DNA from: Emticicia sp. 21SJ11W-3 | GTDB taxonomy: Bacteria; Bacteroidota; Bacteroidia; Cytophagales; Spirosomataceae | NCBI RefSeq assembly: GCF_024138715.1 | Contig: NZ_CP092074.1 | Span: 3,038,001-3,102,000, forward strand | DNA length: 64,000 bases | Direction: 5' to 3' | In this document: piece after piece, positions 27,128 through 45,229 of the stretch | Position numbering within the stretch: the stretch's first letter is position 1 | Layout: each line of letters begins with the position of its first letter | Notes under the pieces: model-generated | Told to the model about the DNA's origin: nothing | Databases searched by the model: none | What the model saw: the letters and a program-made list of their open reading frames with translations, nothing else | Translations under genes and position numbers: made by a program

Positions 27128-29356
27128 ATGACGCCCATAGACTCAGATTTACAAGAACCCGTTACTGATGCTGCCGAACAGAAAGATTCAACTTTGAAAG
27201 AGGCAGAGGCTCCGGCCATTACACAAGTAGACTCTAAAGAAATTATGAACGAACTGAATGATTCCATCGACACTTCGACCGACGAACCTGTTGAAGCAAG
27301 CAAAAAAGAGGTGAAAGATGCAGCCCCTGTTGCCGAAAATGCAGAAACTCCGGCAACGGAACAAACAGAAACCCCCATTGAGGTGGTTGCCATTACTACT
27401 GACGGTGAAGCCGAAGCCCCTGTGCTGGGTGCCGACGAAAGCCCATTAGAAGAAATTGTGGTAAGCAACGACCCGACTGTAATGGTTGAGGTATCGCCCA
27501 AGCCGGTTGAGACTGTAGAGGCCGCTGTTGAAGAGCTGCCGCAGTCGTTCGAGCTGGCAGAAGAAGAAACAGCCGGGCAACCAGCCGAAGAAGTTGATTA
27601 CAGCAATTTTGGTAAAAAGGATTTTGTAGACCTGGGCGAAAAACTGCTGGGTTCAATTAAAGCCGAGGGCGTGAGTGTATCTGACGTAAGAAATGCCGAC
27701 AACGTAATGAAGGAAATCAAACCTTTGTTTGACGACCTGAAAGCACGCGAGAAATCGGAGGCATTGAAAAAATATATTGCAGACAACGGAAGTAACGAAG
27801 GCTTTGAGTTTAGAAACGACAACTTTGTGGTGCGTTTTGAGTCTCTGAGTGCCCAGATACGTGATGCTAAAAACAGTTTCTTCCAGAAAATAGAGCGCCT
27901 GAAAGAAGATTACTTTGAGCGCAAAACCAACCTGCTGCAACGCCTGCGCGACATTGTAGAGCAGGAAGAACAAGGCGGCACTAAAAGCAACTGGCAGGAT
28001 TTCAAGAAACTACAGGAAGAGTGGAAAACGGCCGGGAATGTCAATTCTCCGCATAATACCTCGCTGTGGTCGGCCTATAATGCCCTGGTTGACCGATACT
28101 TTAGTATCCGCCATATTCAGAACGAACTGAAAGACCTGGACCGCAAGAAAAACCTGACAGCCAAAAGCGAAATTGTTGAGCGCATTGAAGCCATTGCCGC
28201 TACCCTTGAAGAAGGCGGCCTGAGCAATGCTACCCTGCGCCAGGCAAACGACCTGCTGGAAGAGTACAAACACATTGGCCCGGCACAGCGTGAAGCCCAG
28301 GAAGAACTCTGGAAACGCCTGAAAGCCGCCTTTGATGTGATACACAACAAACGCAGAGAGCAGTCGTCGCAAGCCGGGGCTTTGCAGGAAGAGATTTTCC
28401 AGGCCAAACAACGCCTGGTAGACAACCTGAAAGCCTATGTGCAGTTTAATACCGACAGCATTAACGAATGGAACGCCAAAACCAAAGAAGTGCTGGCAGT
28501 GCAAGACCAATGGAATGCCATAAAAGGCGCCATGCCGAAAGACAAAGGCAAAGAGCTGAGCCGCGAGTTCTGGTCGTCGTTAAAGACTTTCTTCCGTAAC
28601 AAGGGCGACTTCTTTAACCGTCTGGAAACCGAACGCGAAGGCAACCTGAAATCGAAAACGTCTTTGTGCGAGCAAGTGGAAGCACTTCTGGAAGCAGGCG
28701 ATTACTCGCCGGCCAATACCGATAAAGTAGTAGAACTACAAAAAACCTGGAAGACAATTGGCCACGTGCCTGAGAAATTCAAGGATAAAATATATGATCG
28801 CTTCAAAAAAGCCTGCGATGCCTTCTTTAACGGCAAACGTGCCAAAGGCAATGAAGTAGAGCAGGAATACGAAGCCAACCTGAAACAAAAGCAGGCGCTA
28901 TGCGATGAAATTGAAAAAGCCGCTGAAGCAGGCGAAGCAGACCTGAACAAGCTGGCCGGTTACAAGGCCCGTTATAACGAAATCGGCTTTGTGCCACGCA
29001 AAGAGATGCAGAACATTCAGCGCCGCTTTGTAGATGCCATTAATGCCTATGTAAAGGCCAGCTCGGGTGTGAGCGGCTCTGAAAAAGAGAAAATGCTGCT
29101 GCAGAACGAGGTTGAAGTAACCCTGAAAAACGACAGAGGCAACTCTAAAGAGCTTGACAAAAAAGAAAACGATATACGCCGGAAGATGAAAAAACTGGAA
29201 GACGACATCAGCCTTTGGCAGAACAATATCGAATTCTTTGCCCGTTCTAAAAACGCCAATGCGGTCCGCGCCGAATACGAAGCCAAGATACAAGGCGCAG
29301 AAAAAGAACTGGCCGACCTAAAACAGAAGCTGAAAATAATTGTGGCAGCCAACTGA
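27128..29356 (+). CDS. DUF349 repeat protein
   Basis: This 742-residue protein has an acidic, low-complexity N-terminus (residues 1-155, rich in Glu, Ala, Thr and Pro). About seven helical DUF349 repeats of roughly 70 residues follow, each with a core like 'L...W..ig.vp....d.L..rFk.a.d.ff' (NWQDFKKLQEEWKTAGNV, LQKTWKTIGHVPEKFKDKIYDRFKKACDAFF, YKARYNEIGFVPRKEMQNIQRRF). It ends in a coiled coil. The family is universal in Bacteroidota and its role is not settled; it is predicted cytoplasmic. It is followed by a perfect terminator and the tRNA gene. No sign of transfer: GC-rich codon use. Confidence 0.9.
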   Translation: MTPIDSDLQEPVTDAAEQKDSTLKEAEAPAITQVDSKEIMNELNDSIDTSTDEPVEASKKEVKDAAPVAENAETPATEQTETPIEVVAITTDGEAEAPVLGADESPLEEIVVSNDPTVMVEVSPKPVETVEAAVEELPQSFELAEEETAGQPAEEVDYSNFGKKDFVDLGEKLLGSIKAEGVSVSDVRNADNVMKEIKPLFDDLKAREKSEALKKYIADNGSNEGFEFRNDNFVVRFESLSAQIRDAKNSFFQKIERLKEDYFERKTNLLQRLRDIVEQEEQGGTKSNWQDFKKLQEEWKTAGNVNSPHNTSLWSAYNALVDRYFSIRHIQNELKDLDRKKNLTAKSEIVERIEAIAATLEEGGLSNATLRQANDLLEEYKHIGPAQREAQEELWKRLKAAFDVIHNKRREQSSQAGALQEEIFQAKQRLVDNLKAYVQFNTDSINEWNAKTKEVLAVQDQWNAIKGAMPKDKGKELSREFWSSLKTFFRNKGDFFNRLETEREGNLKSKTSLCEQVEALLEAGDYSPANTDKVVELQKTWKTIGHVPEKFKDKIYDRFKKACDAFFNGKRAKGNEVEQEYEANLKQKQALCDEIEKAAEAGEADLNKLAGYKARYNEIGFVPRKEMQNIQRRFVDAINAYVKASSGVSGSEKEKMLLQNEVEVTLKNDRGNSKELDKKENDIRRKMKKLEDDISLWQNNIEFFARSKNANAVRAEYEAKIQGAEKELADLKQKLKIIVAAN

Positions 29357-29501: not shown

Positions 29502-29574
29502 GCCTCCATAGCTCAGCTGATAGAGCAACTGACTTGTAATCAGTAGGTCGCTGGTTTGATCCCGGCTGGGGGCT
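29502..29574 (+). tRNA. tRNA-Thr, anticodon TGT
   Basis: A 73-nt cloverleaf. Acceptor GCCTCCA/TGGGGGC, D-arm GCTC..GAGC, anticodon stem ACTGA/TCAGT with loop CTTGTAA (TGT, reads ACA), T-stem GCTGG/CCGGC. No CCA is encoded. It has its own promoter upstream and a terminator downstream. The island with Nmad2 and restriction genes starts directly after it. Confidence 0.95.
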
Positions 29575-29587
29575 CACAGAAATTTAA

Positions 29588-29711: not shown

Positions 29712-30407
29712 ATGACTAAAATTTACTCCTACGTGCTGCGATTAGACGATGGCTCTGCCCCCAACCCTTTTGGCGGAATATGTACCCTAACTATTTGTAA
29801 ACCGGTAATCAGAAGAACTGCCCATGTGGGCGACTGGGTGATTGGAACCGGCTCAAAAAACGTGGTGATTGAAAAAGGGACGCGCCCTATTGATTTTTCA
29901 GACAGCCTGGTATATGCCATGAAAATTACCGACATAAAAACCTTACAAGCGTATGACGAGTACTGCAGGAATTACTTGCCAGTGAAAATAGGCAATAAGT
30001 ATGCAGATGACTGGCACCTGAAAGCAGGCGATTGTATTTACGATTATACTTCGGGCAAGCCGGTATTGAGAGTGAGTTCACATGACAAATGCCACACACC
30101 AACTGATTTAAGCGGGCAAAATGCGTTGCTATCTGACCACTTTTATTACTTTGGCCTTGAGGCACGACGCCTGCCGGATGAGCTGAAGGACATGATTAAA
30201 ATCAGCAAAGGACATAAGATAATAGAACAGCCCGCGCTTGTGGCGGCATTTGAAAATTGGATTGCACAATTTGAGAAAAACAAGCTTTACGCCGACCCCC
30301 AGCGAAGATGGTTCTTTGACAGGCCAACGACAGAAATGGAAGCAAGCCAATGTGCCAAAGAAAAACTGGAAACAGAAGAAGATGATATGGAAGAAAGGCA
30401 TTGCTGA
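29712..30407 (+). CDS. Nmad2-type protein, copy 1
   Basis: This 231-residue cytoplasmic protein starts MTKIYSYVLRLDDGSAPNPF, then GGICTLTICKPVIRRTA and GDWVIGTGSKN, the pattern I know as nucleotide-modification-associated domain 2 (Nmad2), a family linked by context to modified DNA bases; its reaction is not established. Residues 85-110 (RNYLPVKIGNKYADDWHLK) are the part that differs most from the copy at 40900-41595; the rest is nearly identical at the DNA level. The shared DNA begins about 24 bp before the ATG (TAACGCACC) and ends at GAAGAAAGGC near the stop. The two copies form direct repeats 11,188 bp apart around the restriction-modification operon. Confidence 0.8.
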   Translation: MTKIYSYVLRLDDGSAPNPFGGICTLTICKPVIRRTAHVGDWVIGTGSKNVVIEKGTRPIDFSDSLVYAMKITDIKTLQAYDEYCRNYLPVKIGNKYADDWHLKAGDCIYDYTSGKPVLRVSSHDKCHTPTDLSGQNALLSDHFYYFGLEARRLPDELKDMIKISKGHKIIEQPALVAAFENWIAQFEKNKLYADPQRRWFFDRPTTEMEASQCAKEKLETEEDDMEERHC

Positions 30408-33268: not shown

Positions 33269-36223
33269 TCAACGGAATTTCATTCCCATATACTGCCGAT
33301 ACATCAAATCAGCAATATTGGGTTTGATTCCGGGTGATTCTACGGTTTTGTAGAAATCAAAGTTATCATTAATGTACTCCAGAAAGATTTTGCTCATCAT
33401 TTCGTTCCAGTATTGCCTTTTATTGGCCTCTGAGTTATCTCCTTCCATTACTTTCCTGATTTCTGCGCTCTGGCTCATCCTTATATAAACATTGTTCAGA
33501 TGAATCCTGTCTTCTTCTTTCAGGTTTACTCCATGCACCTCATTTATCTTCCTGATAATTTCAGACAGTAAACTGTTCTCTTCTGCGTCTTTACCTTTGG
33601 CTCCGCTTTCTGCCATCGGGTCCAGCTCGCCCGCTTTGTCGTCCAGTTTAAGCTTCATTTCTTCTTGTTTCTGTAACCTCAGGGACTCTAAATCAATCGC
33701 ATCGGTAATATCAACAGTGGTACCTATACGTTTGGGTAGTTTCTTCTTCAGGTATTTCAGGAAAATAAAAAGCTTTTCTAATTCAGCATCCTGAAAATCC
33801 ATAATCTGAGAAATATAGCTGTACAACCGGCAATAAGCATTTATTAAAGACCTGTATTCTTCGCGCTTATCAATTAACTCTATTTCCTGCCATTTTTCTA
33901 CGGCCCGGTTCAGGTACGGCTGGAAGGCCTCATCTGATTTTCTTTCTGAAAAGAATAATTGACAGAACTCATCTAATTCATATTTAGTAAACAAATGAAA
34001 CGACTTTATTTCAGAATCTAATTCATACAATTTATAGGAGTCTGTTTCACCAGTTAGGATGGTTGAGGTATAAAAAGGCTGAAATGCCTCAATTATTTCT
34101 TCCGGCTGGTTTACAAAATCAAGCACAAAGGTATCTGTCTTGCCGGTGGCTTTTCTGTTTAGTCTGGATAACGTTTGTACACATTGCACGCCACCCAGCC
34201 GTTTGTCGACAAACATGGTATGGATGAAAGGTTCATCAAACCCTGTCTGATACTTGTTAGAGACAATTAATATCCTGAACCGGGGGTCTTTCAGTCCGTC
34301 AGGAATAGAAACCCCTCCTTGCAGCCCGTTTTCGGTATTTAATGAACCCTCCGTGTGTTCTTTTCCATCTTTTTGAATGCTGCCACTGAATGCCACCAGA
34401 CAAGAGAAGGGTAGCCGGAGCGCCTTCATTTGCTTAAGCATTTCCTGCTGGTACAATACGCAGTGTTTTCTTGACCGCACCACTACCATAGCCCTGGCCT
34501 TCCCCCTGATTTGCTTCTGAGTTTGGTGCATAAACTGATTGAGTATAATTGCCACTTTTTGTCTGATGGTTTCAGGGTGAGAATCAACAAAATTCATTAA
34601 TTCTCTTTTTACTTTTCCTTCCGGTAGTTCCAAATCATCCTTACCATCTTCCTGCTTCAATTTAAACCATCTTTTGTAGGGCATATAATGCGCCAGCACG
34701 TCTAATGTGTAGCCCTCAAAAATTGATTGCTTCATGCTATAAGAATGAAAAGGCACAAACTGGCCAAGCTCATTCTTTCTACCAAATAGCTCAAGGGTTT
34801 TGTTTTTGGGGGTGCCTGTAAAACCAAAAAACGATATGTGCTTTTGCCGCCCGCGGCTCAATAGCTCTTTTGTTAGTATATCTTCATAGTCTTCTTCCTC
34901 GTCTTCGTCAAATTCATTGAATGACAGCGACTTCTTTAATTTCTTTGCCGTCTCGCCTGTTTGCGACGAGTGTACTTCGTCTATGATCACCCCGAAGGTT
35001 CTACCCTTTAGTTTAGACATGGCATCGGCAATTACCCCAAATTTCTGAATGGTGGTAACTACAATATCATTCCCTTTGGCAAGGGCATCTTTCAGTTGCT
35101 CTGAGTTTTTATCTATTGCCTTTACAACCCCCGCCGTCTGTTCTAAATCTCTGAGGGTTTTCTGTAGCTGTTTGTCTAAAACTTTTCTATCGGTTACTAC
35201 TATAATGGTATCAAACAGCCTTGTTTTTTGGCTTGAGTTCTGGTAAAGAGAAGTAAGGGTATGTGCCAGCCAGCCAATGCTATAGCTTTTGCCCGACCCT
35301 GTTGTGTGCTGAATAAGATAATAATGCCCTGCCCCTTCTGCTTTAATTTGTGTTTTTAGTTTACGGATAACATCCAGCTGGTGGTATCTCGGAAATATCA
35401 GTAAATCTTTTTTCTTCTCTACTACCCTGCCCAGTTTTTCATCCCATTCTTTTTCAGTTTCGGTGGTTTCCAACACAAAGTTTTCAATGATATCTAAAAC
35501 TGAATTGGGGCTAAGCACTTCTTTCCAGAGGTAAGAGACTTTGTAATCGTTGGCAACAATGGGGTTTACGATGTCGCGGTTATAGGGCCAAAACCGGGTG
35601 TCGGGGCCTTTCAGCTCTGACGCCATGCCCACCGTGTCGTTATCTACTATAAAATGCACCAGCATACGCTTAAACTGTAACAGTGGCTCATTTTTAGGGT
35701 CTCTGTCAAACTGATACTGCCGGCTTGCGTGGCTGATGTCTTGCCCCGATAGCTGATTCTTCAGCTCAATGCCAATAATGGGTATGCCATTGATAAACAA
35801 TACGATGTCTATCGATTTTTCATTGGCCTTTGAGTAATGCAATTGCCTCACAATACTTAACCTATTACACAAATACTTAGCCTGATGCTCAGGATTCAGC
35901 CCGCTTTTGGGCTCAAAGTAGGTCATATCAAAGTACACGGCTCTATCTTTGATGCCTTCTCTGAGTACTTTTATAAGGCCGTCTTTCTCAATCTGGGTAG
36001 ATAACCGCTGCAGCAGCTTTTCATCTGCTTTCTCGCCAAACTGTACCTGCCAGCGCTCATAGCTTTCAGGCTGTGAAGATTGAAGAAACGCCAGTACCTC
36101 AGCGGGTAGCAGGCAGAGGGTTCTATCATAATTACTAAAATGCAATGCGGTATACACCAGACCATTATTATCGGTTGATGTGAGATATTTTTCTATGTAT
36201 TCTTCAAATCTTTTTTCAGTCAT
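33269..36223 (-). CDS. hsdR: Type I restriction enzyme, R subunit
   Basis: This 984-residue motor/nuclease subunit translocates DNA with ATP and cuts unmethylated DNA far from the recognition site. An N-terminal PD-(D/E)XK nuclease (D139 in SIDIVLF, E153-L-K155 in GIELKNQ) is followed by the superfamily 2 helicase: Walker A HTTGSGKS (residues 306-313), DEVH box IIDEVHSSQTG, FFGFTGTPKN (motif III), VVVRSRKHC, and motif VI QTLSRLNR. The C-terminal region binds the M/S complex. Length is normal for the family. It is last in the operon hsdM-nuclease-hsdS-hsdR, 245 bp downstream of hsdS. Confidence 0.96.
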   Translation of the reverse strand: MTEKRFEEYIEKYLTSTDNNGLVYTALHFSNYDRTLCLLPAEVLAFLQSSQPESYERWQVQFGEKADEKLLQRLSTQIEKDGLIKVLREGIKDRAVYFDMTYFEPKSGLNPEHQAKYLCNRLSIVRQLHYSKANEKSIDIVLFINGIPIIGIELKNQLSGQDISHASRQYQFDRDPKNEPLLQFKRMLVHFIVDNDTVGMASELKGPDTRFWPYNRDIVNPIVANDYKVSYLWKEVLSPNSVLDIIENFVLETTETEKEWDEKLGRVVEKKKDLLIFPRYHQLDVIRKLKTQIKAEGAGHYYLIQHTTGSGKSYSIGWLAHTLTSLYQNSSQKTRLFDTIIVVTDRKVLDKQLQKTLRDLEQTAGVVKAIDKNSEQLKDALAKGNDIVVTTIQKFGVIADAMSKLKGRTFGVIIDEVHSSQTGETAKKLKKSLSFNEFDEDEEEDYEDILTKELLSRGRQKHISFFGFTGTPKNKTLELFGRKNELGQFVPFHSYSMKQSIFEGYTLDVLAHYMPYKRWFKLKQEDGKDDLELPEGKVKRELMNFVDSHPETIRQKVAIILNQFMHQTQKQIRGKARAMVVVRSRKHCVLYQQEMLKQMKALRLPFSCLVAFSGSIQKDGKEHTEGSLNTENGLQGGVSIPDGLKDPRFRILIVSNKYQTGFDEPFIHTMFVDKRLGGVQCVQTLSRLNRKATGKTDTFVLDFVNQPEEIIEAFQPFYTSTILTGETDSYKLYELDSEIKSFHLFTKYELDEFCQLFFSERKSDEAFQPYLNRAVEKWQEIELIDKREEYRSLINAYCRLYSYISQIMDFQDAELEKLFIFLKYLKKKLPKRIGTTVDITDAIDLESLRLQKQEEMKLKLDDKAGELDPMAESGAKGKDAEENSLLSEIIRKINEVHGVNLKEEDRIHLNNVYIRMSQSAEIRKVMEGDNSEANKRQYWNEMMSKIFLEYINDNFDFYKTVESPGIKPNIADLMYRQYMGMKFR

Positions 36224-36468: not shown

Positions 36469-37785
36469 TTAAAATACTTTTATCTTGCCCGTAACCACAT
36501 TAGAAATCAGGCTTTGACGATACTCTTTGAGCTTTTCTATTTTTTGGGTTTCAATTTCAATGCTTTTATCTATTATAGTTGTTTGGTTGTCTAAGAATTT
36601 TACAATATCCTTTTGTTCAAATAATGGTGGAAAAGTAAAACAAAAATTCCCTAAATTTTCCATTGATAAATTTGGTTGCGCCGATTGTACGGCATCAATC
36701 CAAATTTGTTGTTGTAAAATACTTGATGATAACCAATACCAAATATATTTTACATTATGATTTTCTTTTAGTCTAATAAATGAAACCGCTTGATTAGTAT
36801 TTGCCGGGATAAATTCCTTAGTGAGAATTGCAACCTTCCCAAGTGTTGCACCCGCTATCACCACAAGAATATCATTTTCAAGCAGTTTTGACCTACTTAA
36901 TATTTTATCTGTTTCATTATCAATAAAAAATGATGGAAATAACATCACTTTATTGTCGCTAATATTTTCAGCTTTTAAATACCTGACTTCTCCCTCATCT
37001 AACAACTCTCTACCAACTGTTGAAGGGGTTGTCCCTTTACTAATAATTTTTGAAATTTGTTTAATTTTTTTTCTCTCCCAATGCTCAGGTATTTCCCCAA
37101 TCCAATCAATACCAGAATCTTTCATGGGGGCATCGGGGTTGAGGCCTTTGGTTACAACGTGGTTTATCAGGGCACTTCGTTGTTCTTTTAAAAGCTCAAT
37201 TTTTCTTTCTTTTTTTATGATTAATTCATCAATTAAGGCTGTTTTGTGGTCTAGGTAATTTACTATTGCTTGTTGTTCTTGAATTGGAGGAAGAACAAAT
37301 AAAATATTCTGTAACTTTTCCTTAGTTAAGTGTGGTATACTAACTCTATTTACCGAAGAGTCATAATATCCGGTAAAATAATGACAAATAGAATGATATA
37401 AGAAATACTGAGACAAGCCATTAATTATTGATACTCTATTCACAGAGTTTTGAATATAACATTCATTCAATTCATCATTCCAAATACAAGTTCTACCAAC
37501 ATCACCACCTTCATTTATTAATAAATCATTCTTTCTTAAAAGATATAATTGTAACTCTCTTTCTGAAAACCACATTTGCTTTACATCTGAAACATCAACT
37601 TTTTCATTTTGAATATTTTGGCTTCTTAAATATGGTTTCAATACGAACCCTCCTTTATCATCAATAGTAAGCATTTTGCCTAATGTAATAATAGAGAAAT
37701 ATTTTAATGGGATTATTCTCCAATGACTAGGAATCTCTCCAATCCATTCAATATTTGAGGGTTTGTATGAAGTGTAGGTTTGCAT
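36469..37785 (-). CDS. hsdS: Type I restriction enzyme, specificity subunit
   Basis: This 438-residue DNA-recognition subunit is built from two target-recognition domains (residues about 10-185 and 225-415), each followed by a conserved helix (LDHKTALIDELIIKKERKIELLKEQRSALI and LDNQTTIIDKSIEIETQKIEKLKEYRQSLI) that form the spacer. The two halves begin with matching WIGEIPSHWRIIPLK and WIGEIPEHWERKKIK. The two TRDs differ, so a bipartite asymmetric target is expected; the target itself cannot be read from sequence. No inverted repeats for phase variation were noticed. It is AT-rich compared with hsdM, typical of exchanged specificity genes. Confidence 0.95.
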   Translation of the reverse strand: MQTYTSYKPSNIEWIGEIPSHWRIIPLKYFSIITLGKMLTIDDKGGFVLKPYLRSQNIQNEKVDVSDVKQMWFSERELQLYLLRKNDLLINEGGDVGRTCIWNDELNECYIQNSVNRVSIINGLSQYFLYHSICHYFTGYYDSSVNRVSIPHLTKEKLQNILFVLPPIQEQQAIVNYLDHKTALIDELIIKKERKIELLKEQRSALINHVVTKGLNPDAPMKDSGIDWIGEIPEHWERKKIKQISKIISKGTTPSTVGRELLDEGEVRYLKAENISDNKVMLFPSFFIDNETDKILSRSKLLENDILVVIAGATLGKVAILTKEFIPANTNQAVSFIRLKENHNVKYIWYWLSSSILQQQIWIDAVQSAQPNLSMENLGNFCFTFPPLFEQKDIVKFLDNQTTIIDKSIEIETQKIEKLKEYRQSLISNVVTGKIKVF

Positions 37786-37794
37786 ATATTTTAG

Positions 37795-38889
37795 TTAATT
37801 AAGATCTTTTAGGTCTTTTAAAAAAGGTACCCATTCATTTTGTACAGATACTCTAAATTCCTCTTCAAACTTTTCAAAGTTCTCTATATTCAAGTCATAC
37901 ATTTTAAAAACCATAGATGCCCAAATCGCGCTATCACCTTTTGTGTCTGGGACCAATAGAGTGGAATATTTACTCAAGACACCTGAGAACCTTCCATGTC
38001 CATCCTTATGCCATTCCTCCACCCAACTTTTATTATCCGCAATCCAGATATTGAGAACAAGTTTACTTATATCATTATCGCTAAAGAAAATATATCCATA
38101 TAAACTCAGGTCGTTTACTTTAAAGGTAATTGAGTTCCCTTTCTGAACAGTGAATTTTACATGACCCTTAAATAACTCTTTGGCCACAATTTTGACTTTA
38201 TTAATATAGCTGGTATGAACTTCATTGAGTAATTGCACCAACTTGGTTATTTTATCACTATTCATTGAAATAAATTCAATCTTTTCGGCAAGATTCTCCA
38301 CGATTTGATAATGACTTTTTAATATTTCTATAAATGATTCAAAGTTTACTTTCTGTCTTTCTGTAAGAGATATGTTTTCAGATTTAAAATTTCTCTCGAC
38401 ACTTTCAAATAAATTCTGATGTGTAATGGTATAAAAATTTCCCACTTTTTCAGGTAAGTTTACCACAGAAAGAATGATGCATTCATTGCAGTTTAATCGA
38501 TTGTGGCTTTCATAGCTATCCAGTTTATTATAAATATCAGCATATAATTTATTCTCAATTACTATTCTATTTTCATCGTCTTTAATGATTAAATCAATAT
38601 ACTTACCGTCATCAGTTTTTATTTCTCTATGAACTCTAACTTTTTTATAGTCATGAAATGAGACACCAAAATTTCTTAGTTCTAAAAGGGATTTCAGGAA
38701 TAGTCCACCCAGGCCATGAGATTCAGATGGCGTAAAAAAATAAGCATATAAATTACTAACAGGTAATTCCTTATTATTGACTTTGGCCAGCTCTAAAATA
38801 TTGGGTTCATATACTTCATCTGCTTTGAATAAAACAGCGTTATTTAGTAAGACTTCAACATCAAAAGTTTCGTTATTTTTATTCAGCAT
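37795..38889 (-). CDS. PD-(D/E)XK nuclease-like protein inside the hsd operon
   Basis: This 364-residue protein carries a PD-(D/E)XK core (HREI with E89, KYIDLIIKDD with D99, IVIENKLYA with E112-N-K114), followed by Tyr/helix motifs (DIYNKLDSYES), like the PDDEXK_4 group. It is strongly AT-rich. It sits 9 bp before hsdS and 86 bp after hsdM on the same strand, so it is probably made with them. It may be a second effector, an anti-phage nuclease, or a passenger linked to the specificity gene. No known function for this insertion position can be stated. Confidence 0.8.
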   Translation of the reverse strand: MLNKNNETFDVEVLLNNAVLFKADEVYEPNILELAKVNNKELPVSNLYAYFFTPSESHGLGGLFLKSLLELRNFGVSFHDYKKVRVHREIKTDDGKYIDLIIKDDENRIVIENKLYADIYNKLDSYESHNRLNCNECIILSVVNLPEKVGNFYTITHQNLFESVERNFKSENISLTERQKVNFESFIEILKSHYQIVENLAEKIEFISMNSDKITKLVQLLNEVHTSYINKVKIVAKELFKGHVKFTVQKGNSITFKVNDLSLYGYIFFSDNDISKLVLNIWIADNKSWVEEWHKDGHGRFSGVLSKYSTLLVPDTKGDSAIWASMVFKMYDLNIENFEKFEEEFRVSVQNEWVPFLKDLKDLN

Positions 38890-38975: not shown

Positions 38976-40697
38976 TTATTTTGATATTTCATCTTCCAGT
39001 ATCATTTTAAGCAGTCCGTCGCTTTCTTCTTCCAGTTTTAGTAAATCGGCCGTAATTTCCTGCAATGTTCTGAGGGGCTTATACTGGTAAAAATACTTTG
39101 TAAAGTTAATCTCATACCCTACTTTGTCTTTGCTTCTGTCCATCCAGGCCTGGGGCAGGTGCGGTTTTACCTCGGTTTCAAAGTAGGCATCAATGTCGGT
39201 TGCCAAAGGTATTCTCTCAAAGTCTCTCAGGCTGCCATCTACTTTGGGTAGCTTTGTTTTTTTGTCAATAACCTGCAGGCCATTCTCGTCAACCAGCGGT
39301 TGCTCAATGGTTACTTTTGTGTATCCAAAATAGGAGTTTGCAAAAATCTTGCTGTAAGCGTTTTCTTCAAATGAGAGGTAGGTTTGCAGTATTTCTTCTC
39401 TTTGGGCATCGGTAATGTATTTTCTCTTACTGCCTAACGATTTCTTCATGGTCTGGTGCAGCTCGGCGGCATTAATCAACTGCACTTTACCTTTTCGGTG
39501 GGGTTTCTTTTGGTTGGTAACTATCCAGATATAGGTGCTGATACCCGTATTAAAAAAGAGCTGGTCGGGCAGGGCAATGATGGTTTCCAGCCAGTCGTTT
39601 TCAATAATCCATTTTCTTATGTCTGACTCCCCCGAGCCGGCATCACCCGTAAACAGCGGAGACCCATTGAGTACAATGCCTATGCGGCTGCCCCGGTCTT
39701 CCATTTTTGATATCATGTGTTGCAGAAAAAGCAAAGCCCCATCAGAGCTTCTGGGTGTTCCTGCCACAAACCGGCCCTGCGGGTTTTTGGCCTCTGTTTC
39801 TACAAACTCCTGCTCCGATTTCCACGACACCCCATAAGGCGGATTGGAAATCATGTAGTCGAAGGTATTACGCTGTAGTTTGTCTTCAGACAATGACGAA
39901 CCCAAATGAATGTTATCGGGGTTCTGGCCCGTAATGAGCATATCAGATTTACAGATAGAGTAGGTCTGGGGGTTGAGCTCCTGCCCATACAGCCGGATAT
40001 CAATATTGGGGTTGATGTTCTCCAGAATCCAGTCTTTGCCCACCGTGAGCATACCACCGGTGCCACAGCAGGGGTCGAATATAGACCTGATTTTTCCATC
40101 GCCCTGCAAATCTTCTTTGTTTTCAGAGAACACCAGCCCTACCAATAGCTTAACCACATCGCGCGGGGTGTAGTGTTCCCCACTGGTTTCGTTGCTCATC
40201 TCTGAAAACTTGCGGAGCAGCTCTTCAAAAATCTGGCCCATTACATGGTTAGACACCACATCGGGGTGTAGGTCTATTTCTTTAAATTTAGCAATAAGCA
40301 GGTATAAGCGGTTGTTTTTAATGAGCTTTTCAACAGGTTTTTCAAGCTGAAAGCTGTCTATGATTTCAAACACATTTTTAGAATAACCATTCAGGTAATT
40401 CTGAAAATTGATTTTCAGGCTATTGGCAGTAAGTGTCGATAAATCGTATTGCGAATGGTTATAAAACTTAAGGTTGATTGCGTTTTCAATAATGGGGTCC
40501 AGGTTATTAATCTGGTCTTTGTAGGTGTTGTAGAGGTTAAAAACTTTGTCTTTGTGGGGTTCAAGCACGCAGTCCAGGCGTCTTAAAACAACAAAAGGGA
40601 GGATAATATCGCCGTATTCATGCTGTTTGAAAAGGCCTCTGAGCACATCGTCACACACATTCCATATAAAGGAAGATACTTCTTGGTGGTTTGCCAT
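38976..40697 (-). CDS. hsdM: Type I restriction enzyme, modification subunit
   Basis: This 573-residue N6-adenine methyltransferase subunit runs from ATG 40697 (MANHQEVSSFIWNV, the usual HsdM start). The frame extends to 40778 but the extra residues are unconserved. Motifs are GEHYTPRDVVKLLVGL, the SAM site IFDPCCGTGGMLTVG, and the catalytic NPPYG in YMISNPPYGVSW. The N-terminal HsdM_N helix bundle (DVLRGLFKQHEYGDIILPFVVLRRLD) is present. It heads the operon and is divergent from the second Nmad2 gene at 40900. Confidence 0.95.
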   Translation of the reverse strand: MANHQEVSSFIWNVCDDVLRGLFKQHEYGDIILPFVVLRRLDCVLEPHKDKVFNLYNTYKDQINNLDPIIENAINLKFYNHSQYDLSTLTANSLKINFQNYLNGYSKNVFEIIDSFQLEKPVEKLIKNNRLYLLIAKFKEIDLHPDVVSNHVMGQIFEELLRKFSEMSNETSGEHYTPRDVVKLLVGLVFSENKEDLQGDGKIRSIFDPCCGTGGMLTVGKDWILENINPNIDIRLYGQELNPQTYSICKSDMLITGQNPDNIHLGSSLSEDKLQRNTFDYMISNPPYGVSWKSEQEFVETEAKNPQGRFVAGTPRSSDGALLFLQHMISKMEDRGSRIGIVLNGSPLFTGDAGSGESDIRKWIIENDWLETIIALPDQLFFNTGISTYIWIVTNQKKPHRKGKVQLINAAELHQTMKKSLGSKRKYITDAQREEILQTYLSFEENAYSKIFANSYFGYTKVTIEQPLVDENGLQVIDKKTKLPKVDGSLRDFERIPLATDIDAYFETEVKPHLPQAWMDRSKDKVGYEINFTKYFYQYKPLRTLQEITADLLKLEEESDGLLKMILEDEISK

Positions 40698-40899
40698 AGT
40701 CAGGTTAAAAGGAAATTTTGTTAAGCATGGCAATATAAAAAGATTAGAGATAATATAGAAAAATACTTTTATTGGCACGGCAGATGAGCCGCTGCCCGAG
40801 GCCAGTTATAATGAATTAAAAAATATCTGATTTGACAGGTTTTATCTTTTGAAATTCAATGAGAAACAATTACTTTAACGCACCAAAAAAAACAACCCA

Positions 40900-41595
40900 A
40901 TGACTAAAATTTACTCCTACGTGCTGCGATTCGACGATGGCTCTGCCCCCAACCCTTTTGGCGGAATATGTACCCTAACTATTTGTAAACCGGTAATCAG
41001 AAGAACTGCCCAGGTGGGCGACTGGGTGATTGGAACCGGCTCAAAAAACGTGGTGATTGAAAAAGGGACGCGCCCCATTGATTTTTCAGACAGCCTGGTA
41101 TATGCCATGAAAATTACCGACATAAAAACCTTACAAGCGTATGACGAGTACTGCAAAAAAGAATTGCCTGTAAAAATTGTAAACTGGGAGTCTGAGGACT
41201 GGCACCTGAAAGCAGGCGATTGTATTTATGATTATGCTACGGGCGAGCCGGTATTGAGAGTGAGCTCACATGACAAATGCCACACACCAACTGATTTAAG
41301 CGGGCAAAATGCCTTGCTATCTGACCACTTTTATTACTTTGGCCTTGAAGCACGGCGCCTGCCGGATGAGTTGAAGGACATGATTAAAATCAGCAAAGGA
41401 CATAAGATAATAGAACAGCCCGCGCTTGTGGCGGCATTTGAAAATTGGATTGCACAATTTGAGAAAAACAAGCTTTACGCCGACCCCCAACGGAGATGGT
41501 TCTTTGACAGGCCAATAACAGAAATGGAAGCAAGCCAATGTGCCAAAGAAAAACTGGAAACGGAAGAAGATGATATGGAAGAAAGGCTGTGTTAA
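40900..41595 (+). CDS. Nmad2-type protein, copy 2
   Basis: This 231-residue near-duplicate of the protein at 29712-30407 has the same start, APNPFGGICTLTICKP core and C-terminal part. Differences cluster at residues 84-110 (KKELPVKIVNWESEDWHLK instead of the copy 1 version), with scattered single changes elsewhere. Conservation from the start of the repeat (TAACGCACC at 40876) to the end suggests recent duplication or gene conversion. It is divergent from hsdM, with the promoter region between 40698 and 40899. Confidence 0.8.
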   Translation: MTKIYSYVLRFDDGSAPNPFGGICTLTICKPVIRRTAQVGDWVIGTGSKNVVIEKGTRPIDFSDSLVYAMKITDIKTLQAYDEYCKKELPVKIVNWESEDWHLKAGDCIYDYATGEPVLRVSSHDKCHTPTDLSGQNALLSDHFYYFGLEARRLPDELKDMIKISKGHKIIEQPALVAAFENWIAQFEKNKLYADPQRRWFFDRPITEMEASQCAKEKLETEEDDMEERLC

Positions 41596-41645: not shown

Positions 41646-41729
41646 ATGACCAGAATTAAGTACTCAATTATTGTTTTATTGGCCTTATTAACTTCTTGCT
41701 CTGACTTTGAACCTTCCATCTACTTATGA
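41646..41729 (+). CDS. 27-residue lipopeptide ORF
   Basis: This ORF encodes MTRIKYSIIVLLALLTSC followed by SDFEPSIYL. It has a complete lipoprotein signal with lipobox LTSC, then only 10 mature residues. Its TGA overlaps the ATG of the next gene (ATGA at 41726-41729), the classic arrangement for translational coupling. It could be a leader peptide or a decayed lipoprotein; the overlap with the membrane protein gene argues it is translated. Confidence 0.45.
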   Translation: MTRIKYSIIVLLALLTSCSDFEPSIYL

Positions 41730-42136
41730 GTGCTGATGCTAAACACAAACACCTGGACCTGGTACAGGGGGTTATAAGCCGTATGGCGCAAAATTCTTTT
41801 ATTATAAAAGGCTGGGCTATTACCATTTTAACAGGTTTACTGGCTTACGGCACCTCAAAGCCCGAGACGCCCTTCATTAAAATAGCGTGTTTAAGTATTG
41901 TGCCCACGCTTCTATTCTGGATTCTCGATGCCTTTTACCTGAGCCTTGAAAAACAGTACCGGCAGTTGTTTGATGCAGTAAGAAAAAAAGACAACGATAA
42001 AATAGATTACAAAATGGACGTAACTGCTTTTAAAAAAGATAAAAACAGCTGGCTAAATATTTTTGCCTGCAATTTATCTCTGTTGTTCTTTTACCTGCCA
42101 CTGCTGCTATTACCTTTTATAATTGCCTGTTTTTAA
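41726..42136 (+). CDS. Small three-helix membrane protein upstream of the TIR-Roco gene
   Basis: This 136-residue inner-membrane protein has three transmembrane segments (residues about 24-42 IIKGWAITILTGLLAYG, 50-73 and 109-135) and a charged cytoplasmic stretch between the second and third (EKQYRQLFDAVRKKDNDKIDY). The pattern 'KHKHLDLVQGVISRMAQNSFIIKGWAITIL' is one I have seen in uncharacterised proteins of many bacteria; the function is unknown. The gene ends 9 bp before the 1027-residue LRR-Roc-COR-TIR gene on the same strand, so the two are almost certainly co-expressed. A membrane partner of a TIR effector is plausible. Confidence 0.7.
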   Translation: MSADAKHKHLDLVQGVISRMAQNSFIIKGWAITILTGLLAYGTSKPETPFIKIACLSIVPTLLFWILDAFYLSLEKQYRQLFDAVRKKDNDKIDYKMDVTAFKKDKNSWLNIFACNLSLLFFYLPLLLLPFIIACF

Positions 42137-42145
42137 TTTACACTT

Positions 42146-45100
42146 TTGCGCATGAGCCGACTAGCTATTGAATTAATTGAAGAAAATATACGCACCAAAA
42201 ACCCTTTTCTGGACTTAGGCAACTGTGGCCTGGTAGGTGAACTACCCAATGAAATTCTGAAATGTAAAGATTGGCTGGAAAGGCTGAATTTAGGCGTTTA
42301 TTATTTTGACCCAGAAAGCAAAATCTCTATTCCATCAAAAAACAAGGGAAATAGAAATAAAATCAAGGGTAAGGGGTTGGATGCTTTACAAAACCTGCCC
42401 CAATTACAATCTTTAGACCTTCACTATAATCAAATTCAGGATATTAGTTTTTTACAAAACCTGTCCCAATTACAATCTTTAGACCTTAGCTCTAATCAAA
42501 TTCAGGATATCAGCTTTTTACAAAACCTGTCCCAATTACAATCTTTAGACATTAGCATTAATCAAATTCAGGATATTCGTTTTTTACAAAACCTGTCCCA
42601 ATTACAATCTTTAGACCTTAGCTCTAATCAAATGCAGGATATTAGTTTTTTACAAAACCTGTCCCAATTACAATCTTTAGACCTTAGCTTTAATCAAATT
42701 CAGAATTATAGTTTTTTACAAAACCTGTCCCAATTACAATCTTTAGACCTTCGCTCTAATCAAATTCAGGATTATAGTTTTTTACAAAACCTGTCCCAAT
42801 TACAATCTTTAGACCTTCGCTATAATCAAATTAAGGATATTAGTTTTTTACAAAACCTGTACCAATTACTATCTTTATACCTTAGCTCTAATCAAATTCA
42901 GGATATTCGATTTTTACAAAACCTGTCCCAATTACAATCTTTAGACCTTAGCTCTAATCAAATTCATGATGTCAGCTTTTTACAAAACCTCACAAGGCTT
43001 AGTTTCATAGACATCAGATATAATCCAGTTCAGAATATTGGAGAAGGCTTTAAACAGTTTATCCTGAATAATACAAATTTAGAAGAATTTTACAGCGACC
43101 CATTACCCGGTATTCCTGCTGGTATTGAAAAAGGAATTGATGCACTCAGAACTTATTTTAAAGAGTTAAAAAAGCAGGCTGAAAGACATCCAAACAGGTC
43201 TTTTAAAATAATACTCATGGGTAATACGCGTGCCGGTAAAAGCCAGCTATTAAATTATCTGGTGCGGCAAAGTTTTGATGACCCTTCCATCAGCACGCAC
43301 GGCATCAAAATTGAAGAGTGGCAAACAAGCATCAACAATGATGCGTATAATATAACTTTTTATGATTTCGGCGGGCAGGATTTCTACCATGCTACGCATA
43401 ATTTATACCTGAGCCACAAGGCCCTTTACCTAACGCTCTGGAACACCGAAAACGAACAGAGCAACTCAGAACAGAATCTGCATTTAGGCTACTGGCTTGG
43501 TAATATTCTGTTCTACCTTCTATCAGACACTGAAGCCGACACCGCTCAGCAATTAATGCAAAGCCATGTTTGGTGCATACAAAGCAAAGCAGACCTGCAA
43601 GAAAACCAAAGGAAGCTTTTGCAAAGCCAGCTTGACTATCAGGTAAGCCCCAACGGAAATTTTTACCTCAGCATAAAAAATGCCTTTGATGCCGATGCCT
43701 ACTGGCAAAAAGAATGGCAATATTTTAAAGACCATTTGCTGGCGCAAATTGCCGGCTTGTGCAAACAGGCAGATTTACTTACGGCGTCAATGGTGGCCAT
43801 TAAAGAAAAAGTGCTGAAAACCTATAGAAACAAAGAACTATTGGTGGTTAAGTACGATGATTTACTGAACGATTGCCGGGCAAATACTGGGGCTTCTGAT
43901 GAACAGATATATAATGCCTTATTGGTATGGGATGCGGCGGGTTATATTCAGTACTACCCAAAAGATGCTGTATTGAAAAACTACATTTTCCCTAATCCGG
44001 CGCTTCTGTCTGAAACCGTTTTCGGTGTTCTGGAAAATAAAAAAATGGAAACGAAAGGTGGTGAGTTTATGCAAGCAGACATAGATGAAGTACTAAATAA
44101 ACAGGAAATTGAAACACAAGATTTATTCAGTAAAATCTTTATTGACCTGCTGTTGAATTTTGAAATAATATTTGAGAAACCCGGCCAACCCGGCACTTAT
44201 GTAGTGCCGCAGTATTTGCCACCACAAAAGCTGGAAACCTTTCTGCTCGATATCATTCCGGTTACTTTAGTGATTCGCTTCAAAGACTATATGCCTTTCT
44301 GGCGTATATCTAACTTTATTACTCAGGTAGGCGCGCTTCCTGCTTCAAATGCACACTACTGGCGATACGGCATTTTATACAAGCTGCAAGACTGCACGGT
44401 GCTGATACGCATGCAAAGGGCTTTTGGGGCAGAAAGCACAGAAAACCAGAAGGTGATGATTCATATTGATGGGCCTGCTGATATAAGAAGCAAACACCTG
44501 AGAGAAGTATTTGAGTTTTTTACATTGACCGAAAAAAGAATACAACTGAGTTTTGCAAAACCGGCGTTGGATTTACTGTCTGAAGAAGTACAGCCAAAAA
44601 GACAAAAGTCGTTTATTGAACGAATTGAGTTGTCTGACGACGGCCATCAGTTTTTTAATGTGGCTGAGCTACTGAACCACATTGATGATACCAAATATTG
44701 TAAAAATCAGGATGGTAAAATTAAGCCTATCCCACCTATATTTTACCCGGTGCTAAATAAAGAGAATAAAACCCCCAAGCGTATTTTCTTTTCGTATGCT
44801 CATGCCGATGCCGTTTATCGCAAACAACTGGAAACGCATTTTGCCGCCCTGAAAAGAGATAAATTAGTGGAAACGTGGTTTGATTTGGAGATATCGCCGG
44901 GTGAAGAATGGGATAAACGAATAATGGAAGAAATCCAACGGGCAGATATTGTGCTGGCGCTCATCAGTCCAGATTATATAAATTCTTATTATATATGGGA
45001 GAAGGAAATTCCGAACATAACGCCCGATAAAACGTTGATACCTATTTTTCTTCGCTATTGTGATGTACCCGAGTCGTTGAATAAATATCAGGGCGCGCCG

Positions 45101-45229
45101 TTTGATTCAGAATCGAAGGATAAAAAAGCAGGAATAAAATGGATATTGTCTGACCATTGGAAGTTCATAGATGAGGCGTATCTGGAGGTAGTGAAAAAGG
45201 TAAAATCTGTTTTGGGAGCAGGTAGCTGA
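42146..45229 (+). CDS. LRR-Roc-COR-TIR (Roco-type) protein
   Basis: This 1027-residue cytoplasmic protein has, in order, an N-terminal LRR block (about residues 80-300), a Roc GTPase, a COR dimerisation region (about 560-800) and a C-terminal TIR domain (about 877-1020). The Roc P-loop is GNTRAGKS at about 359-366, with DFGGQDFYHATH as a DxGGQ switch motif. The TIR starts KRIFFSYAHADAVYRKQL and includes WFDLEISPGEEWDKRI and SYYIWEKEIPNI; the Glu in the last segment is a candidate NADase catalytic residue. Roco proteins with effector domains exist in bacteria and TIR domains deplete NAD in several phage-defence systems; this combination makes abortive defence a reasonable hypothesis. It is coupled to a membrane protein 9 bp upstream. 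Confidence 0.88.
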   Translation: MRMSRLAIELIEENIRTKNPFLDLGNCGLVGELPNEILKCKDWLERLNLGVYYFDPESKISIPSKNKGNRNKIKGKGLDALQNLPQLQSLDLHYNQIQDISFLQNLSQLQSLDLSSNQIQDISFLQNLSQLQSLDISINQIQDIRFLQNLSQLQSLDLSSNQMQDISFLQNLSQLQSLDLSFNQIQNYSFLQNLSQLQSLDLRSNQIQDYSFLQNLSQLQSLDLRYNQIKDISFLQNLYQLLSLYLSSNQIQDIRFLQNLSQLQSLDLSSNQIHDVSFLQNLTRLSFIDIRYNPVQNIGEGFKQFILNNTNLEEFYSDPLPGIPAGIEKGIDALRTYFKELKKQAERHPNRSFKIILMGNTRAGKSQLLNYLVRQSFDDPSISTHGIKIEEWQTSINNDAYNITFYDFGGQDFYHATHNLYLSHKALYLTLWNTENEQSNSEQNLHLGYWLGNILFYLLSDTEADTAQQLMQSHVWCIQSKADLQENQRKLLQSQLDYQVSPNGNFYLSIKNAFDADAYWQKEWQYFKDHLLAQIAGLCKQADLLTASMVAIKEKVLKTYRNKELLVVKYDDLLNDCRANTGASDEQIYNALLVWDAAGYIQYYPKDAVLKNYIFPNPALLSETVFGVLENKKMETKGGEFMQADIDEVLNKQEIETQDLFSKIFIDLLLNFEIIFEKPGQPGTYVVPQYLPPQKLETFLLDIIPVTLVIRFKDYMPFWRISNFITQVGALPASNAHYWRYGILYKLQDCTVLIRMQRAFGAESTENQKVMIHIDGPADIRSKHLREVFEFFTLTEKRIQLSFAKPALDLLSEEVQPKRQKSFIERIELSDDGHQFFNVAELLNHIDDTKYCKNQDGKIKPIPPIFYPVLNKENKTPKRIFFSYAHADAVYRKQLETHFAALKRDKLVETWFDLEISPGEEWDKRIMEEIQRADIVLALISPDYINSYYIWEKEIPNITPDKTLIPIFLRYCDVPESLNKYQGAPFDSESKDKKAGIKWILSDHWKFIDEAYLEVVKKVKSVLGAGS
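42386..42985 (+). repeat. Nine near-identical 66-bp LRR-coding units
   Basis: Units of 66 bp encode LQNLSQLQSLDLSSNQIQDI plus SF or RF, repeated about nine times, with a tenth diverged unit. Changes concentrate on the two residues before the conserved Asn (HY, SS, SI, SF, RS, RY) and the residues after Gln (DIS, DIR, NYS, DYS, DVS). The DNA is far more uniform than LRR function requires, suggesting recent expansion or gene conversion. Confidence 0.9.

Follow-up and report, generated by a model that had tools for sequence, protein, structure and literature searches.

What does a bacterial Roco protein do when it ends in a TIR domain and its gene directly follows that of a small membrane protein? 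We examined this question in Emticicia sp. 21SJ11W-3, in a stretch of 64,000 nucleotides (contig NZ_CP092074.1, positions 3,038,001 to 3,102,000; hereafter the window). There, a gene for a protein with leucine-rich repeats (LRRs), a Roc GTPase domain, a COR region and a C-terminal TIR domain (Roco-TIR) lies downstream of a gene for a 136-residue membrane protein. Our analyses revealed that the membrane protein, a member of the PDC-M50A family, is a general partner of TIR proteins and that the Roco protein is one putative sensor among several. Judged from sequence, the pair would be a Thoeris-like defence module built on PDC-M50A, in which the Roco-TIR receptor replaces the small ThsB-like TIR protein of most relatives. 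We assign this reading a probability of about 0.58.

Composition of the operon

The features of the operon, in window coordinates, are as follows.

41726..42136, plus strand: gene for the membrane protein, 136 amino acids (aa), a clear PDC-M50A match in PADLOC (PDLC04686, E 7.9e-42)
42146..45229, plus strand: gene for the LRR-Roc-COR-TIR protein, 1027 aa from TTG at 42146 or 1025 aa from ATG at 42152
42385..42990, plus strand: LRR array, 66-bp (22-residue) unit, 9.2 copies, 91% matches
43205..43504, plus strand: Roc GTPase domain (Pfam extent), with the P-loop GNTRAGKS at 43220-43243
43796..44680, plus strand: COR region, with COR-A at residues 551-691 and COR-B at residues 711-845
44783..45121, plus strand: TIR domain (Pfam extent), TIR_2 1.9e-14, PADLOC ThsB model 9e-27
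45005..45007, plus strand: codon of the candidate catalytic Glu954, the second Glu of WEKEIP
41646..41729, plus strand: open reading frame (ORF) of 27 codons, a doubtful gene, with an ATGA overlap with the membrane gene

A first-pass annotation of this locus had called three ORFs on one strand. The membrane gene, the Roco-TIR gene and the 9 bp between them stand, and the short third ORF is doubtful. The domains it had named were all recovered. Pfam placed Roc (2.6e-17) before COR-A (3.3e-14), the succession that defines a Roco protein, and found the TIR domain at the C-terminus. COR-B was weak by sequence and was backed by fold comparison, in which the structure model of the protein matched Roc-COR structures. 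The Roc domain, with its P-loop and a DFGGQ motif, is predicted to bind and hydrolyze GTP. The glutamate that had been put forward as catalytic was confirmed by translation as Glu954, and an alignment showed it kept in seven of eight Roco TIRs, in what we take to be the catalytic column of TIR NADases. The window TIR retains a candidate catalytic residue, and cleavage of nicotinamide adenine dinucleotide (NAD) is predicted. This TIR gave no match to the PADLOC model PDC-M50B at E up to 1. The same genome encodes a second LRR-Roc-COR-TIR protein of 1259 aa about 2 Mb away (locus L088, 4490-8269).

PADLOC was the only library, of those tried, that names the family of the membrane protein; in Pfam and NCBIfam, neither this protein nor its relatives had a convincing family match. 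In PADLOC-DB 2.0.0, PDC-M50 is a candidate system made up of the PDC-M50A membrane protein and PDC-M50B, a ThsB-like TIR protein. The structure model of the window's membrane protein (pLDDT, predicted local distance difference test, 93.8) has a long helical hairpin (residues 3-44 and 50-87) and a further helix (117-135), read as a third membrane helix. Across 66 aligned relatives, Q14, I17, R19, F64, L67 and E75 are invariant, and N23, S24, K28, W30, D68, R79 and Y82, among others, are kept in at least 90%. The polar members of the conserved set are Q14, R19, N23, S24, K28, D68, E75 and R79.

Association of the membrane protein with TIR genes

We profiled the neighbours of family loci picked by the membrane protein alone, except for two plasmid loci taken for their HIT label. 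A TIR-type gene was present within two genes on the same strand at 125 of 137 loci. By set, this was the case at 17/17 loci of the phylum survey, 75/78 genome contigs, 19/23 viral contigs, 2/7 loci of the class survey and 12/12 loci from plasmids (11) and phage (1), the last two drawn from 138 plasmid and 3 phage records. Two genome-contig repeats of phylum-survey loci (L097 and L102) and one fragment with no match to the larger profile (L043) were dropped. The TIR queries came mostly from the neighbour genes themselves, and TIR identity was verified on representatives: Pfam assigned 8/10 to a TIR family (all but L122 and L035), and PADLOC matched 7/9 to a TIR or ThsB model (all but L035 and L027). 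Representatives at L203, L100 and L037 also matched as TIR, and the PDC-M50B model matched the ThsB-like TIR neighbour at L094 (E 3.4e-67).

The position of the main TIR cluster was controlled on the 78 genome-contig loci, counting loci with two membrane ORFs twice. Its members occupied the preceding gene in 24/76 cases, the following gene in 52/78, and positions four or more genes away in 7/344; no adjacent one was on the opposite strand. The median gap between membrane and TIR genes was 4 bp (83 gaps, genome-contig set). Both gene orders were found, and the partner TIRs were of varied subtypes (ThsB_TIR, TIR_2 and CAP12-PCTIR_TIR).

The first-pass annotation had tied the membrane protein to Roco-TIR genes. 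Its link to TIR proteins stood, but it is not Roco-specific, because a TIR-type gene lies beside it at those 125 loci while 133 of the 137 have no Roc-COR gene. The annotation had also proposed that finding the membrane protein mostly without Roco-TIR genes would speak against the pairing, and on that rule alone the pairing would fall. The earlier interpretation was right in outline and is partly supported, with the membrane protein now a general TIR partner.

The family was detected in 19 of 395 genomes sampled from the phylum (window genome counted) and in 138 of 72,556 plasmid records, including 40 from Klebsiella and 36 from Escherichia. Among 50,697 phage records, three carry it, and all three belong to a single type of 14-kb Vibrio phage (Vinavirales). 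In the one phage record examined, the membrane gene comes after an integrase gene and a gene annotated with a ThsB note. Carriers include E. coli and haloarchaeal plasmids. Scanning genome contigs returned at least 519 stretches with relatives, and the best 80 of these, ranked by similarity to the window's protein, span many phyla.

Recurrence of the Roco pairing

Roc-COR genes were found at 4 of the 137 family loci, plus the window. At L132 (Aureivirga sp. CE67), the membrane gene is followed after 4 bp by a gene for an LRR-Roc-TIR protein with a COR that is weak by Pfam. The order is reversed at L191 (an IMG/VR contig), where an LRR-Roc-COR-TIR gene precedes a membrane ORF by 52 bp, and at L227 (genome G401), where an LRR-Roc-COR gene precedes the membrane gene by 1 bp. 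Pfam missed a TIR domain in the L227 protein at E 0.05; the C-terminal part can be aligned to the TIR set and has the sequence YIWEKEIP. At L100, in a metagenome-assembled genome of Chitinophagales, one run of genes holds an LRR ORF, a Roc-COR ORF, two TIR genes (ThsB 2.1e-44 for the first, TIR_2 2e-5 for the second), a gene that is ParA-like by eye and the membrane gene.

Phylogenetic analyses revealed that these cases are scattered. Well-supported branches of the membrane-protein tree (124 rows) force four changes to account for the four adjacent Roco cases, which were united in 0% of 200 bootstrap trees; this tree has few columns and several long branches, and the label test gives scatter, not direction of change. 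Four changes are likewise needed for the five linked rows among the 20 of the Roc-COR tree (a single change in 0%), in which L191 and L227 group together. The changes may be gains or losses. Several Roco gains are the simpler reading because so few rows are linked, and Roco proteins most likely joined the membrane protein more than once. That the two genes are neighbours by chance, as the 133 loci lacking a Roc-COR gene could suggest, is already disfavoured by three other adjacent pairs, with gaps of 1, 4 and 52 bp, that are scattered on both trees, and we give this explanation next to no credence.

The distribution also bears on the idea that the membrane protein restrains the TIR as an antitoxin or off-switch, so that phage damage to the membrane would free it. 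Tight operons in both gene orders fit such a role, as does the occurrence of the membrane gene without a TIR gene, but at least six Roco-TIR proteins have no membrane gene in the stretch fetched (L074, L075, L076, L078, L080 and L088). We consider restraint improbable.

Other neighbours of Roco genes were seen in passing. At L080 (3158-9705), genes resembling the TIR type surround the Roco-TIR gene, the Pfam check covering the Roco protein only, and a different membrane-like ORF is also present. Roco genes at L222, L078 and L083 adjoin genes that resemble, by eye only, type I restriction subunits.

Fusions of the membrane domain to HIT domains

On plasmids of the actinomycetes Gordonia terrae and Rhodococcus ruber, a HIT domain is located N-terminal to a PDC-M50A-type membrane domain.

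L232, 2551-3573: HIT fusion gene
L233, 2551-3441: HIT fusion gene

The HIT parts matched Pfam HIT (3.6e-21 and 2.6e-23), and the family profile gave the membrane parts 79 and 86 bits in a search that covered three sequences only. Both fusion genes overlap the end of a separate TIR gene. The fusion was covered to at least 80% in six plasmid records, the query's own counted, and the Rhodococcus fusion adjoins a gene annotated drmD of DISARM. HIT domains bind and act on nucleotides, so the fusions suggest that the membrane domain answers to a TIR-made nucleotide, or that the fusion protein clears such a nucleotide.

These fusions matter for the possibility that the membrane protein is an anchor or scaffold that recruits or clusters TIRs at the membrane, with the TIR killing by emptying NAD and no pore formed. 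A generic dock would fit a protein that pairs with several TIR subtypes, the Roco-TIR differing again, and most members have no separate ligand domain. However, the HIT fusions stand next to TIR genes that are separate, which favours a nucleotide as ligand, and the conserved charged residues, which appear from the alignment and structure model to line the hairpin, would also argue against a simple dock. We regard an anchoring role as unlikely.

Genomic setting

The operon is flanked, by Pfam, by an Nmad2 gene and an acyltransferase gene. Type I restriction genes and a tRNA gene are located nearby.

27128-29356: conserved gene beside tRNA-Thr
29502-29575: tRNA-Thr, left of the restriction genes
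33269-36223, strand opposite to the pair: HsdR
36469-37785, strand opposite to the pair: HsdS
37795-38889, strand opposite to the pair: PD-(D/E)XK nuclease-superfamily gene (PDC-S26, E 1.3e-206), between HsdM and HsdS
38976-40778, strand opposite to the pair: HsdM

We compared this site in 7 of the 20 family relatives that match the window at 27128-29356. All seven have the conserved gene and then tRNA-Thr, and the content beyond varies. Relative G1120 carries Tmn, a type I system (HsdR 72% and HsdM 79% identical to those of the window) and PDC-S18, and G1123 carries the type III-A CRISPR genes Cas10, Csm3, Csm4 and Csm5. Across the remaining five, the defence scan covered a single protein at a single locus and gave no match; because these five were barely scanned, two of seven is a floor. 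The tRNA-Thr site is a defence hotspot, and the defence setting proposed at first pass, beside a restriction island, is supported.

The pair could instead be a membrane unit for signalling or housekeeping that has nothing to do with invaders. No phenotype is known, and five class-survey loci have no adjoining TIR gene, as such a unit would allow. Carriage by plasmids and a Vibrio phage, the hotspot position and the TIR linkage all speak against it, and we judge it very improbable.

Two Nmad2 genes (29712-30407 and 40900-41595) form a direct repeat, 11,188 bp apart, that flanks the restriction genes. They are 96% identical over a 300-nt stretch and are the genome's only two copies at the search threshold. 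The repeat is possibly a duplication or an island border.

Proposed mechanism and its implications

We infer all steps from sensing to membrane damage. The LRR array would recognize an invader product, and recognition would switch the Roc-COR GTPase. The TIR would then become active and consume NAD. Its product, or contact with the TIR itself, may make the membrane protein oligomerize or open, and the membrane protein would harm the inner membrane and so halt both cell and phage. The data suggest a self-destruct alarm against phages with interchangeable sensors.

Several observations weigh against a Thoeris-like module. The Roco structure model is of moderate confidence only and is silent on the TIR part, and the second Roco-TIR protein of the genome (L088) has neither a membrane partner in the fetched stretch nor the aligned TIR glutamate. 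A fold search of the membrane protein gave no significant match and no clear fold relative, and a recognizable ligand-binding domain is absent from most family members. A same-strand TIR gene within two genes is missing at 12 of the 137 loci; family members can therefore exist without a TIR. The exceptions are L116 and L166 (both with contig ends nearby), L168, L184, L196, L201 (TIR-type gene on the opposite strand) and L202, together with L226 and L228-L231 from the window's class, where members or fragments lie among other genes without a TIR neighbour. The class survey is thus the weakest set, with 5/7 loci lacking a TIR; the membrane gene of L228 adjoins an AAA_15/AAA_21 ATPase gene, and the ORFs of L229-L231 are only 79-95 aa. 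Closeness to restriction genes is circumstantial. We found no paper naming PDC-M50, and hence no functional data on it, in a search that left out most subscription papers.

A broader interpretation, to which we give somewhat less than even odds, casts PDC-M50A as a plug-in effector of TIR signalling at the membrane. An NAD derivative produced by the TIR would gate it, and bacteria would have repeatedly coupled an LRRK2-like LRR-Roc-COR receptor to it. If the plug-in interpretation is true, the Roco version would correspond to plant TIR receptors that signal to a membrane channel, with a GTPase as its switch, and the effector family would be a large one, unnamed in Pfam and NCBIfam. Should the small protein be the effector shared by hundreds of bacterial and archaeal TIR operons, it would account for much of TIR immunity that is so far unassigned and provide a parallel to the signalling of plant TIR proteins to membrane channels. 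With only two genes, a TIR output and a partner of 136 residues, the operon would let phage challenge test directly what a bacterial Roco protein does.

Comparison with known systems

The window pair resembles PDC-M50 in having a PDC-M50A membrane protein with a TIR in the same operon, but here the TIR forms the C-terminal end of a Roco protein of 1027 aa. Membership was judged by PADLOC models and model names, not by the system rule; because the second half of the pair fails the PDC-M50 models, we file it as working like PDC-M50 and Thoeris and not as a member.

Small helical membrane proteins beside nucleotide-signal genes, including TIR genes, are also known from the two-transmembrane SLATT effectors of conflict systems, which were proposed as nucleotide-answering pores (Kaur et al. 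2020, PMC7159879). None of 25 family members matched the SLATT Pfam models at E up to 1. By fold, two SLATT entries from viruses matched, but only weakly (E 3.5 with TMq 0.38, and E 4.6 with TMq 0.28).

Structural work on LRRK2, the human Parkinson's protein, uses bacterial Roco proteins as models (PMC6337361). That review, from 2019, assigned every prokaryotic Roco protein known at the time to the LRR-Roc-COR group, and the word TIR does not occur in its main text. Unlike LRRK2, C. tepidum Roco and M. barkeri Roco2, the window protein has a TIR in place of the LRRK2 kinase and shares an operon with a membrane gene. In the parts of the literature searched, we met no tested biological role for a bacterial Roco protein. 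Kaur et al. 2021 (PMC8195603) described the architecture of the window protein in bacterial conflict proteins of the LRR-AP-GTPase-COR kind, whose C-terminal effectors vary. They list at least 24 such domains, TIR among them, and predict a counter-invader role. The section of that paper on these proteins mentions no small membrane partner gene, whereas the window has one. We found no paper linking a Roco-TIR protein with a membrane partner; most subscription papers were outside the search, and such absence is unproven.

In PADLOC, neither the Nmad2 neighbour nor the membrane protein matched ThsA of Thoeris (SIR2-SLOG or TM-macro), and no sequence link was seen between the membrane proteins of the window and of TM-macro ThsA. 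Even so, TM-macro ThsA is the nearest published mechanism found and may be a precedent, by analogy, for a TIR-gated membrane effector. According to PMC11204291, its macro domain self-assembles on TIR-made ADP-ribose or imidazole adenine dinucleotide and clusters the membrane helices. Both systems combine a TIR enzyme with a membrane effector, which in ThsA answers a TIR-made nucleotide, but the window pair has no macro domain and its TIR is fused to a Roco receptor. As far as the literature searched shows, three things are new: the form of the module with a Roco receptor, the scattered recurrence of that form, and the HIT fusions.

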